39,816 bases of DNA from a virus, in IMG/VR virus record IMGVR_UViG_3300020581_000020, positions 1 to 39,816 of that record. One strand, given 5' to 3'. The notes beneath the pieces were generated by a model. That model saw only the letters and a list, made by a program, of their open reading frames with translations, was not told where the DNA came from and searched no databases. A program made the position numbers and the translations under genes. This document shows, piece after piece, positions 3,368-38,400 of the stretch (the stretch's first letter is position 1; every line of letters starts with the position of its first letter).

Positions 3368-3452
3368 CATTCGCGGAATCCCTTGATTCGTACAAGGCCG
3401 CGATTACTCGGGGCTGAGGGCTCAGGCTCTCGGCTCCGGGCCGGTAAAGATT

Positions 3453-3650
3453 ATGGAAATTAAACCTAGGCAGCGATGGATTCGGAAGCGGGACGGCGCA
3501 GAGGCTCGCATTATGGCCGTTGCCGATGGCTGGGTAATGGCTAGATTGAAAGGGTGTATACCTTGGGTGTTGATGGTACCAGAGTTTTTGAGTGAATTTA
3601 CCGTGGTGGCTCCGGGCCGGCGAAAAGACATGAATGTAGATTCCAAGTGA
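3453..3650 (+). CDS. Hypothetical basic protein, 65 aa
   Basis: A small beta-rich basic protein (KPRQRWIRKRDG...VADGWVMAR) reminiscent of short SH3-like or KOW-like folds, though this is only a pattern resemblance. It is adjacent to the zinc-binding ORF downstream, one base apart. Confidence 0.65.
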   Translation: MEIKPRQRWIRKRDGAEARIMAVADGWVMARLKGCIPWVLMVPEFLSEFTVVAPGRRKDMNVDSK

Positions 3651-3651
3651 A

Positions 3652-3867
3652 ATGGCGACGAAGAACCTACTGGCGCACCGCTGCCACATGCGGGTTTATC
3701 GGGCGATTAGACGCGGAGAGATGGATGCCGCGTACTATCAGCAATGCGTGGATTGCGGATGGTCGCCCTGCGAATATGATCACGAATGGGGTTACAGATG
3801 GTGGAAGCGAGTAGTGGCGAGGTGCCGCTGGTGTCATCGAAGACGACATGCGAAGAAACGGGCTTGA
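3652..3867 (+). CDS. Small HNH-like zinc-binding protein, 71 aa
   Basis: The protein contains CVDCG, then a DHEWG element, then CRWCHRRRH. This layout is that of the zinc-ribbon plus beta-beta-alpha core of very small phage HNH proteins. The second HNH histidine is not certain, so it may bind DNA without cutting. The 3' end overlaps the promoter at 3864. Highly basic C terminus. Confidence 0.75.
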   Translation: MATKNLLAHRCHMRVYRAIRRGEMDAAYYQQCVDCGWSPCEYDHEWGYRWWKRVVARCRWCHRRRHAKKRA

Positions 3868-3893
3868 CTTGTGAGGCAGAGTGTGCGTAAGAT
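3864..3893 (+). promoter_or_regulatory. Sigma70-like promoter upstream of the structured RNA
   Basis: TTGACT (3864-3869) and TAAGAT (3888-3893) are separated by 18 bp, a good match to the sigma70 consensus. The start of transcription would be at about 3900, just before the strongly folded gene-free region. Confidence 0.6.
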
Positions 3894-3899
3894 TGAATT

Positions 3900-4214
3900 C
3901 AACCGCCTGATCCGCGGCCTTCCTTCTCGGAATTTGGTTGGGGCACTACCCAGTGCCCCTCTCACTTACCAAGTTGGAATATCGGTGAGGAACCAAATTT
4001 CGGAATCAACGATTAGATTCCAGACAAGTATTTTCGATGACATTCGTAATTGCGGGTTGCCAACTTACCGCAGCCGTCCACGGGGAGTGATTCTCGGTCC
4101 CCGAAAACGGGGATGCGTCCGCCCAGCGAGGCATTGTGAAGTGACGCAGGACCAGGTGGCGAATGCCAGATGCGGAAAGAATAAGGCTGGGGAATTTAAG
4201 TTGCCTTTTCTTCT
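3900..4214 (+). ncRNA. Candidate structured RNA or leader with perfect three-way junction
   Basis: This interval has no convincing gene. Its core at 3928-4002 folds into a three-way junction with no unpaired base at the junction. Stem A is 3928-3939 with 3991-4002 (12 bp). Stem B is 3940-3947 with 3952-3959 (8 bp, loop ACCC). Stem C is 3960-3965 with 3985-3990 (6 bp). G-U pairs in A and C favour + strand transcription. Further hairpins follow: 4002-4007/4016-4021, 4051-4055/4068-4072, two competing stems at 4081-4113, and 4130-4135/4162-4167. It may be a free small RNA or the regulatory leader of the gene at 4215, which lacks a ribosome-binding site. Confidence 0.65.
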
Positions 4215-4700
4215 ATGAATGAATTGTTTTCAAACCCGCTCTGTGAAGGTGCAGAAGAGATTTACGATGCTTACCCGAGGCACATCGGGAAACGAGATGC
4301 ACTGAAGGCGATAGAGAAAGCAATTCAAAGGCTAGTCAAAGGCGAATACGAGGGGCAAGTTCTGTCTCGAACGCAGGCAATTGCTGGATTAAAAAATCGT
4401 GCAATCATGTTTGCAAATTCTCCAGCAGGCAGGAGAAAAAGTTTTACCGCGCATCCGGCAACTTGGTTCAATCGCGGCAGTTATTTGGATGATCCAGAGG
4501 AGTGGACGCATGAAGAAAACCGACTTAGCCCAGCCGAGCAACGAAGCACTGCAACCCATTCAGCAATTATTGACGCCCTCCGAAATCGCGTTGAGCAGAG
4601 AAATGGAACTCACAGCCGTGAACGGCAAAACGGTCCTGACGGACGTTCTGGCCAACGAACTTTTCCGGCTTTACAGCTCAAATCTCCCGGGCGCGATTGA
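4215..4700 (+). CDS. Putative phage replication protein
   Basis: The 161-aa product has the pattern seen in the C-terminal part of many phage replication and helicase-loading proteins: YPRHIGKRDALKAIEKAI near residues 20-37, then AHPATWFNRGSYLDD near 79-93. Downstream of about residue 100 the sequence is low in recognisable structure and overlaps the next gene in another frame. No Shine-Dalgarno is visible before the ATG; the structured region upstream may control it. It probably helps recruit host helicase to the phage origin, which is inference from the family. Confidence 0.75.
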   Translation: MNELFSNPLCEGAEEIYDAYPRHIGKRDALKAIEKAIQRLVKGEYEGQVLSRTQAIAGLKNRAIMFANSPAGRRKSFTAHPATWFNRGSYLDDPEEWTHEENRLSPAEQRSTATHSAIIDALRNRVEQRNGTHSRERQNGPDGRSGQRTFPALQLKSPGRD

Positions 4701-5850: not shown

Positions 5851-6717
5851 TTGAAGATTCAGCATCTTTGGCGAAGCGGGATTCTGACGTGGGACGACGG
5901 GGACGCTTTGTGTATCTCGGTTGTCTTTACGTGGCATCTGCCGCTTGCCCGAAGGTATGCAGAGTCTATGTCTCATCGGCGCGTGCGGATCGGCGGTCCT
6001 GCGGTCGGGTTGATGCCTGAGTTTTTCTTCGGTTGCAAGGCTGAGATTGGCGGCTCGCTTCCGGGTGTGCTTCAACGCTGGAATCCGTTAGCGACTCGCA
6101 CTTCTCTTGGCTGTCCGCGCAAGTGCAAGTTCTGCGGAGTTCCTAAAGTGGCGGCTCAAGAAGCGATTGAGTTGTCCGGTTTTCCGATTATGCGCTTCGA
6201 GGACTGGCCGGATTTGCCCGTCATCGCGGACGACAATTTGCTTCTCGCTGGAAAGACTCAGGCAGAGCGGATCGCACACTTTGACAAGGTTTGCGACCGC
6301 CTGGAAAAGCATGAATGGTGCGATTTTAATCAGGGCACCGATGCACGCGCTGTGACCGAGCATCACGCCGAACGGCTAGCGCGGCTCAAGAAACCGATGA
6401 TTCGCATGGCGCTCGATTCAATGAGTTATGTGGCGGCGTGGGACGAAGCTCTCGACAAACTTCTCAGGGCAGGCGTGGCGAAGCGGAATATTCGGACCTA
6501 CTGCATCATGGCGTTCGGAACGTCGCCGGATGAGTGCTGGAAAACCTGCGAACACGTCGAGAGTCGCGGAATCAAACCGCTGCCGATGTGGTTCCATGAA
6601 CTCGATGCTCTAGAGCGCAACATCGTGACGCCGCGACAGGCAGAACTCGGCTGGAATGATTACGAACGCCGCCGACTAATGCAGTGGTTCTATCAGCACA
6701 AAGAAGCAGTTGTGTAA
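5851..6717 (+). CDS. Radical SAM enzyme
   Basis: The 288-aa protein begins at TTG 5851, directly after the previous stop, with GAGGGGAG upstream. It has CPRKCKFC (Cys88, Cys92, Cys95), the CxxxCxxC cluster that binds a 4Fe-4S centre and S-adenosylmethionine. Other conserved-looking parts are DDNLLLA near 127-133, FNQGTDAR near 159-166, and LPMWFHELDALE with a C-terminal LMQWFY. These suggest a phage-associated radical SAM subgroup of unknown substrate. It has no B12 domain and no second cluster. It could modify nucleic acid, protein or a small molecule. Confidence 0.88.
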   Translation: MKIQHLWRSGILTWDDGDALCISVVFTWHLPLARRYAESMSHRRVRIGGPAVGLMPEFFFGCKAEIGGSLPGVLQRWNPLATRTSLGCPRKCKFCGVPKVAAQEAIELSGFPIMRFEDWPDLPVIADDNLLLAGKTQAERIAHFDKVCDRLEKHEWCDFNQGTDARAVTEHHAERLARLKKPMIRMALDSMSYVAAWDEALDKLLRAGVAKRNIRTYCIMAFGTSPDECWKTCEHVESRGIKPLPMWFHELDALERNIVTPRQAELGWNDYERRRLMQWFYQHKEAVV

Positions 6718-6737: not shown

Positions 6738-7325
6738 ATGAAAACATGGCTTACTGACGTAAATAACAACCGTTGTTCGGTGGAATATTTCGGATCACGC
6801 GAGGCAGCGCAAACTGCCCTGGATAGTCTAATCGGTTGCTCCGATTGCTCCGATTGCTCCGGTTGCTCCGATTGCTCCGGTTGCTCCGGTTGCTCCCGTT
6901 GCTCCCGTTCCTCCGGTTGCTCCCGTTGCTTCGGTTGCTCCGATTGCTCCGGTTGCTCCGGTTGCTCCGGTTGCTCCGGTTGCTTCGGGTTAATTGAAGC
7001 TGCCCCTGTGACTGGCTCCGCAGACCCAGTCACAGTTCCGGTCATTCCCGACATTCACAAAGCAGTCTACGCGGCGGCATCGCAACCGAAAGCCTTGGCT
7101 ATGGACACTTGGCACACCTGCCAAAACACACATTGCCGAGCGGGATGGATTGTGACACTCGCAGGAGCGGAAGGACGCAAACTCGAACAGAGATTCGATA
7201 CGCTCTCGGCAGCGATGCGAATCTACGACGCCAGCGATCCAGCGTTCAAGATCAATCCGTGTCGTTTTTTCGATTCCAATGAAGATGCGCTGGCCGACAT
7301 GAAGAAACTGGCTGAGGGGAGTTGA
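6738..7325 (+). CDS. Cys-Ser-X triplet repeat protein with WHTC/THCRAGW domain
   Basis: The 195-aa protein has three parts: an N-terminal domain (residues 1-33), 17 tandem triplets C-S-[D/G/R] (34-84), and a C-terminal domain containing [15 protein letters not shown] near 126-140 and [19 protein letters not shown] near the end. From memory of the family, this C-terminal domain occurs in phage proteins whose N terminus carries other simple repeats such as pentapeptide repeats. The 16 repeat cysteines every third residue could bind metal or form a disulphide-rich rod. Function unknown. Confidence 0.82.
6837..6989 (+). repeat. Tandem 9-bp repeat coding for 17 Cys-Ser-X triplets
   Basis: Seventeen 9-bp units of the form TGCTCCGAT or TGCTCCGGT follow without gaps and stay in frame. 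Three units deviate: one loses the Cys (SSG) and two carry Phe (CFG). The unit size is a multiple of three, so gain or loss of units changes length and not frame. Confidence 0.95.
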
Positions 7326-37874: not shown

Positions 37875-38324
37875 ATGCACTTTGACCGCGAACAGGAGGA
37901 AATCGAACTTCTCAAACGACAGGAAAGAACTGAGGAGGAAATCGAGCGCGACCTCGATAGAATCGTTGGCTTTCTTAAACCCCGGCTGGCATTCATCAAA
38001 ATCTCATTTGGAGGCAACATGGCACAAGGACCAGTAAAACTCAACGTAGGACAGAAAACCACCGCATCCGTTCTCGGGTTCGATCAGAATGGGGCACCGT
38101 TTGCTATCGACTTCACCGCTAACCCGGTAACCTGGGCGGATGACAACCAAGCCGCTGCGTCGGACGCCCCAGCGGGGGCCACGGATGTATTGACCGGCGT
38201 TGCCGCGGGGGTCTCAAACCTGACCGCAACCTGTGGCGGGTTTACGGATACCGAACAAGCAACCGTCAGCGCCGTGGTTCCGGTACTGTCGAGCATCAAG
38301 ATCGACTTCTCCGGTCCTGCTTAG
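37875..38324 (+). CDS. Ig-like domain protein with second in-frame start
   Basis: From ATG 37875 the product is 149 aa: a charged N-terminal helix (EEIELLKRQERTEEEIERDL) then an Ig-like/BIG-type domain (VKLNVGQKTTASVLGFDQNG...TEQATVSAVVPV). ATG 38019 has GGAGG four bases upstream and would make the Ig-like domain alone (101 aa, MAQGPVKLNVG). Both may be made. Ig-like domains decorate virions or bind surfaces. Confidence 0.72.
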   Translation: MHFDREQEEIELLKRQERTEEEIERDLDRIVGFLKPRLAFIKISFGGNMAQGPVKLNVGQKTTASVLGFDQNGAPFAIDFTANPVTWADDNQAAASDAPAGATDVLTGVAAGVSNLTATCGGFTDTEQATVSAVVPVLSSIKIDFSGPA

Positions 38325-38337
38325 GGGGCGGAGGTAA

Positions 38338-38377
38338 CAAGGGGCGGGACTATCGGGGGATGGCTTACCGCCCCTTG
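38338..38377 (+). other. Long intergenic hairpin with G-rich loop
   Basis: CAAGGGGCGG (38338-38347) and CCGCCCCTTG (38368-38377) form a perfect 10-bp stem with a 20-nt loop that contains GGGGG. No T-run follows, so it is not a rho-independent terminator in the + direction. It lies between the Ig-like and lipoprotein genes. It may be an mRNA processing or stability element. Confidence 0.6.
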
Positions 38378-38400
38378 AAAAATACTCAGAAGGGAGCACT

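Follow-up and report, generated by a model that had tools for sequence, protein, structure and literature searches.

A conserved, structured noncoding RNA element ending at the start of a phage replication gene and its possible role as a cis-acting leader

Introduction

Structured leaders governing replication initiators are classic in plasmids. In phages, the antitermination exerted by the HK022 put RNA goes via the zinc-binding domain of the RNA polymerase β' subunit. The leader of IncI-type plasmids is reported to form a pseudoknot with the start region of the initiator gene, which sets its translation (PMC10724649, PMC10286972, citing Asano and Mizobuchi 1998). The gene 32 leader of T4 and RB69 contains a pseudoknot, which in T4 spans ~28 nt and is joined by a less structured stretch, and is an autogenous translational operator (PMC535899). 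The HK022 put RNA is ~70 nt long, has two stem-loops and occurs twice per genome, after both early promoters (PMC9378689).

Here, we analyze a virus record of IMG/VR that comprises 39,816 bases (hereafter the window, meaning the whole stretch of DNA). Our comparisons show that the gap at 3900-4204 holds a conserved and structured RNA element of ~300 nt, which is noncoding, begins just after a promoter-like site and ends at the start of the replication gene rep. This element was previously uncatalogued and is kept by three otherwise different phages before the same replication gene.

Results

Replication gene and neighbourhood

The window encodes an Erf-like annealing protein (1291-2016), an exonuclease (2016-2657) and, on the + strand, the O-like rep gene (4215-4700), recognized by a profile match to phrog_270; a terminase, a P22-type portal, a scaffold protein and a P22-type coat protein are also encoded. 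The match of Rep to phrog_270 is confined to the C-terminal part (profile positions 180-293 of 383). Among named phages, those of Tunturiibacter (Acidobacteriota) have the Rep closest to that of the window, and for this reason its host may be acidobacterial, which we take only as a hint.

Other features were seen in the window. A 71-aa, Cys/His-rich and possibly zinc-binding protein (3652-3867; CVDCGW...H...CRWCHRRRH) had no relative in an IMG/VR search. The phage early region also encodes a Radical SAM-like protein (5851-6717; phrog_9298, with a sub-threshold Pfam match), and a protein with a long Cys/Ser/Asp/Gly repeat (6738-7325; CSDCSGCS...) has a 61% identical relative in the L011 contig described below. 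Of the 75-nt folds in the window, one of the two most stable is a hairpin of 15 bp that occupies a small gap (3404-3445) and whose GGCTCCGGGCCGG motif is present again near 3608; an equally stable fold (-41.7 kcal/mol) lies near the right end (38306-38380).

Fold of the three-way junction

The initial annotation had proposed, for positions 3928-4002, an RNA three-way junction with stems of 12, 8 and 6 bp. On the + strand, this segment has a minimum free energy (MFE) of -34.2 kcal/mol (z -5.18), none of 200 shuffles being equally stable, and its centroid is identical to the MFE fold. The junction (3927..4003) is composed of P2 (3928-3939/3991-4002; 12 bp, which U3927.G4003 could extend), P3 (3940-3947/3952-3959; 8 bp) and P4 (3960-3966/3984-3990; 7 bp, plus an inner CCA/UGG), all on the + strand. 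The first two stem lengths are thus as proposed, whereas the third stem is one pair longer. The lack of any unpaired base at the junction is borne out in the MFE fold of 3928-4002, and the wobble pairs G3930.U4000, U3960.G3990 and U3966.G3984 fit the + strand alone, as had been claimed.

An equally tight junction was found in 1 of 1000 dinucleotide shuffles of the segment, and about a dozen other junctions turned up when both strands of the whole window were scanned loosely. Because of these, the fold taken by itself is only suggestive, and it is the conservation of the element that supplies the proof.

The RNA had been described as unfamiliar and, indeed, no family of Rfam 15 reached its gathering threshold; the best sub-threshold match, to RsmV on the minus strand, scored 16.9 bits where the cut-off is 100. 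A search for tRNA and tmRNA returned none.

Relatives of the element

Used as lone queries, the Rep, upstream and exonuclease proteins of the window retrieved no close relative, and blastn against phages and plasmids returned either no match or chance matches only. An alignment of Rep with its Tunturi relatives, used as query, retrieved 55 loci. Two of these, on the IMG/VR phage contigs L010 (3300032180_000015) and L011 (3300031754_000007), encode Reps 72% and 66% identical to that of the window, and both carry a homologous gap directly upstream of rep. DNA patterns of the conserved core matched the L010 and L011 contigs plus one chance match in IMG/VR; in genomes, they gave 14 matches, all attributable to chance.

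The covariance model of the core (R1), built from the three phages, finds one copy in each of them, with scores (173.9-176.2 bits) that follow from its construction. It gave no credible match elsewhere in the phage, plasmid and IMG/VR collections or in 396 genomes, all from the phylum to which the L072 (Bryobacter) genome belongs. The sole match among these genomes (L082, 26.6 bits) was rejected because it is located inside a coding gene and has many broken pairs.

The P22-type portal of the window is unmatched in L010 and L011, and the portal and head protein of L010 are different ones, which indicates that the RNA and rep move as a module among phages differing in structural genes. The exonuclease adjoining the element is 83% identical between the window and L010.

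Covariation and conservation along the RNA

The comparison rests on three sequences (window, L010 and L011), and the pair counts for P1-P4 come from a hand-made structural alignment of them. The element opens with a 5'-terminal hairpin, P1 (3903..3917, +; CCGC-CUGAUCC-GCGG), in which 3 of 4 pairs show changes on both sides while the loop, with its conserved UGAUCC, is invariant at 6/7 positions. A kissing contact of this loop was sought by eye, and each RNA has 5-nt complements in differing places, as chance would give.

The junction is the MFE fold of its segment in the window, L010 and L011 (z -5.2, -4.5 and -3.1, respectively). The layout of P2 is constant in the three phages, with 5 bp, one position and 7 bp, the single position being A-U in the window and A.A in L010 and L011, the sole non-pair in P1-P4. 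Pairing is retained despite double-sided changes at 11 of the 13 positions of P2; such changes affect 16/25 pairs of P2-P4 and 19/29 of P1-P4 together. L010 and L011 therefore form the junction from stems that differ largely in sequence, and these are the compensatory changes in related phages that the initial annotation had called for. Stems that are rewritten while their layout of 5 bp, one mismatch and 7 bp is kept provide unusually clean evidence of a folded RNA from three sequences. An optional hairpin, GGAAUC/GAUUCC (4002..4021, +), follows; L011 lacks it, and in L010 it is replaced.

Downstream lies a conserved core of ~140 nt (4029..4166, +), 80% invariant, with a closing helix (4041-4047/4159-4165) and internal helices. 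Over 4029-4170 it aligns without gaps, and all 36 proposed pairs are formed in the three phages; 6 pairs carry double changes, compared to 0-1 when partners are slid. In the P6 hairpin (4051..4072, +; UGCGG/CCGCA), 3 of 5 pairs have changes on both sides and the loop is invariant, as is the stretch GGUUGCCAACUUAC spanning it. P8 and P9 (4081..4113, +; CGGGGAgugaUUCUCG-g-UCCCCGaaaaCGGGGA) lack covariation support because both helices are invariant; P8 CGGGGA could alternatively pair with P9 UCCCCG, at a cost of 1.3-2.8 kcal/mol. The P10 helix (4114..4148, +; UGCGUC/GACGCA) shows changes on both sides in 2 of 6 pairs.

Invariant positions make up 34% of the junction, 80% of the core and 28% of the linker behind it, then 13/13 in GAATTTAAGTTGC and 40% of the spacer to the start codon. 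Conservation is higher in the core (85-87%) than in rep (74-76%). Therefore, the feature at 3928-4002 is real as a junction, but it is only the middle part of a conserved RNA of ~300 nt that reaches the rep start codon and is best conserved downstream of the interval first noted.

Promoter, pre-start element and predicted pseudoknot

A promoter had been claimed just upstream of the junction. The site TTGACT-N18-TAAGAT (3864..3893, +) matches 9/12 consensus positions, and its start would be expected near 3900, but such sites are no commoner than chance, with one found in the scanned region and 1-2 expected (shuffle mean 1.5). At a similar distance from P1, L010 has TTGCAT-17-CATAAT and L011 TTGACT-17-TAAGGT, but both fall below the scan threshold. 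The promoter consensus, scoring lower still in L010 and L011, thus hints weakly at a transcript start near 3900. Scanning the window revealed no + strand terminator between the RNA and rep, for which reason the two are probably co-transcribed.

Directly before rep, the pre-start element GAAUUUAAGUUGC (4192..4204, +) is invariant at 13/13 positions between diverged flanks, and it is retained in L011 although the open frame discussed below stops before it there. It contains UAAGUUG (4197-4203), to which the P6 loop segment CAACUUA (4061..4067, +) is complementary. This is the only 7-mer complementarity common to the three RNAs (chance about 0.01). The duplex of 7 bp is modest (-4.9 kcal/mol), and the predicted pseudoknot rests on bases that are invariant, and hence non-covarying, in the three members. 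A Shine-Dalgarno sequence is absent upstream of rep in the window, L010 and L011; most other genes of the window phage carry one.

The open frame across the gap

The gap had been considered gene-free. This holds for known genes, but an open frame of 115 aa starting with GTG (3871..4218, +) crosses it and overlaps the rep start as ATGA, an overlap type frequent in this phage. The gap is also crossed by an open frame in L010 and L011, the lengths differing by multiples of three (joint chance about 0.2%, combining the chance of open frames with that of the indel lengths), and tblastn gives a similarity of 57-58%. As a protein made from this interval would have contradicted the RNA interpretation, codon statistics were inspected. 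In the core, pS is 0.13-0.20 and pN 0.13-0.14, and substitutions by codon position (9/6/7) show no bias, whereas rep, with pS 0.57-0.68 and pN 0.13-0.17, is strongly biased towards third positions. The synonymous excess expected of a protein-coding gene is therefore absent in the core (pN = pS ~0.14, compared to pS ~0.6 in rep), which shows no amino-acid-level constraint. In addition, the start codons of the frame differ among the phages, lack a Shine-Dalgarno sequence and are located upstream of the inferred transcript start, and the product has no match in Pfam, PHROGs or phage proteins. Therefore, although the open frame is retained, we rejected the protein reading of the gap on the codon statistics and the lack of a family or phage match, and we judge the frame not to be a gene.

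Folded stretches before other short rep genes

Short versions of the O-like Rep were seen again in the Tunturi phages and in other environmental contigs. In the Tunturiibacter phages Tunturi_1 and Tunturi_2, a strongly folded gap of ~165 nt (z -3.8) likewise lies before a related rep (42-44% identical), but no sequence or fold similarity to our element was detected and R1 has no match there. The two phages share this gap (L009 3810-3973 in Tunturi_1 and L008 3369-3532 in Tunturi_2), which has no Rfam match; in Tunturi_1, a gene annotated as endonuclease lies between it and rep, and in Tunturi_2 the best 100-nt stretch before rep reaches z -5.9. Apparently unrelated folded stretches precede rep in L016 (~2840-2950), L018 (~2810-2930) and L035 (~1345-1480), with z of -6.8, -7.3 and -6.2, each being then followed by a TTGACA motif; L016 and L018 have the hairpin CAGGACTCTG..GGGTCCTG in common. 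An Rfam search of the Tunturi, L016, L018 and L035 stretches retrieved no family. L012 and L020 encode a short Rep without a strongly folded stretch before rep. The co-occurrence of a short Rep with a folded stretch is an observation on few cases, not an association established by test; it motivates the replication-start reading weighed below.

Discussion

Proposed role as a leader of rep

Our results describe an uncatalogued structured RNA that is well supported, comes from environmental phages and is tied to rep across phages with differing capsid genes. As to its role, we give an even chance to the element being the 5' leader of the replication operon, controlling the timing of rep translation in cis; in its favor, a single element occupies the identical position before rep in three phages. 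Building on the observed structure and conservation, we infer co-transcription with rep and a contact between the loop and the pre-start element: the invariant UAAGUUG, 8-12 nt ahead of the rep start codon, would pair with the invariant P6 loop CAACUUA, and the making or breaking of this long-range pairing would open or close the region where rep starts. Core folding, including the two nearly equal alternative CGGGGA/UCCCCG pairings, could govern the contact, possibly together with a bound protein, while a scaffold for folding and protection of the 5' end may be provided by the 5' hairpin and the variable junction. The pairing could act either way, activating rep in the manner of IncI plasmids or repressing it. 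If an equally large leader operates in phages with short initiators, it offers a testable route to the timing or the start of replication there.

Alternative readings

The protein-coding reading, in which the message of the 115-aa frame (3871-4218) would be structured incidentally, draws on the frame-preserving lengths and the ATGA overlap described above; it appears highly improbable, as the flat codon statistics stand beside a clearly coding rep and 25 double-changed pairs require an RNA explanation. Other readings accept the RNA and differ in what it does. An antiterminator or anti-pausing RNA of the HK022 put kind, whose nascent form binds RNA polymerase so that downstream terminators are read through, would suit a phage early region in which structure begins with the first transcribed bases, a 5' hairpin and a junction coming right after the promoter-like site. 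However, HK022 has two put copies of ~70 nt with two stem-loops each (PMC9378689), compared to one copy of ~300 nt with many helices here (one in each of the three contigs, which may be incomplete), and the invariant pre-start element at rep would be left unexplained; we regard this reading as unlikely. A trans-acting small RNA, regulatory or related to immunity, could be processed from the rep message or end ahead of rep, and the promoter-like site, the compact conserved core and the conserved loops UGAUCC and GGUUGCCAACUUAC would fit it. Nevertheless, the + strand has no terminator ahead of rep, and action in cis best accounts for a conserved element beside the rep start, which makes a small RNA rather doubtful. 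A translational operator, to which Rep or another early protein would bind to repress its own message, as T4 gp32 does through the pseudoknot of its leader, is compatible with the cis-acting leader and differs in what drives the switch; a long structured leader with a possible pseudoknot ahead of a replication gene would be in line with it, but Rep is not known as an RNA binder, and we consider this version improbable.

The element could also be part of the replication origin, where a structured transcript, or hairpins in single-stranded DNA, would prime or position replication and substitute in origin recognition for the missing N-terminal part of Rep. Indeed, the element is always next to rep, Rep matches the C-terminal part of phrog_270 only, strongly folded stretches precede rep in several other short-Rep phages, and no iteron array or DnaA box was found at the element that would mark a conventional origin in the gap. 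In contrast, the G.U pairs of the fold suit RNA rather than DNA, and the short-Rep phages L012 and L020 lack a folded stretch; an origin role thus seems unlikely to us. In a broader and speculative form, to which we attach a slim chance, the RNA itself would take part in the start of phage replication, a structured transcript replacing origin recognition where an O-like initiator lacks its N-terminal domain, and unrelated short-Rep phages would each have acquired a folded RNA before rep.

Comparison with known systems

Of the two phage systems compared, the HK022 put RNA likewise folds after an early promoter, but the element described here is ~300 nt long, combines a three-way junction with a multibranched core and ends at a start codon. 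The T4/RB69 gene 32 leader shares with it the location at a phage replication-protein gene and a pseudoknot, here a predicted one, and differs in that the element described here reaches ~300 nt with junctions. We claim membership in none of the IncI-type leader, T4 gene 32 or HK022 put classes.

Our comparison with the rep leader of IncI-alpha, IncB and IncL/M plasmids (repZ/repA, with an activating pseudoknot) draws partly on general knowledge. No sequence relation to that leader is known, and the phage structure is much larger. Expression of rep in the IncI type needs a translated leader peptide; the phage element has no conserved leader-peptide start, as the gap is open in the three phages but starts are not conserved and the core shows no amino-acid constraint. 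The IncI type also has an antisense RNA against the hairpin, and a scan of the opposite strand for sigma-70-like sites over the core found no antisense promoter of this type in the window, L010 or L011. Nevertheless, in both systems a structured leader lies directly ahead of the replication initiator gene, and the loop of a hairpin can pair with bases shortly ahead of the initiator start, here CAACUUA/UAAGUUG in all three phages. Functionally, the IncI-type plasmid leader is the closest known case.
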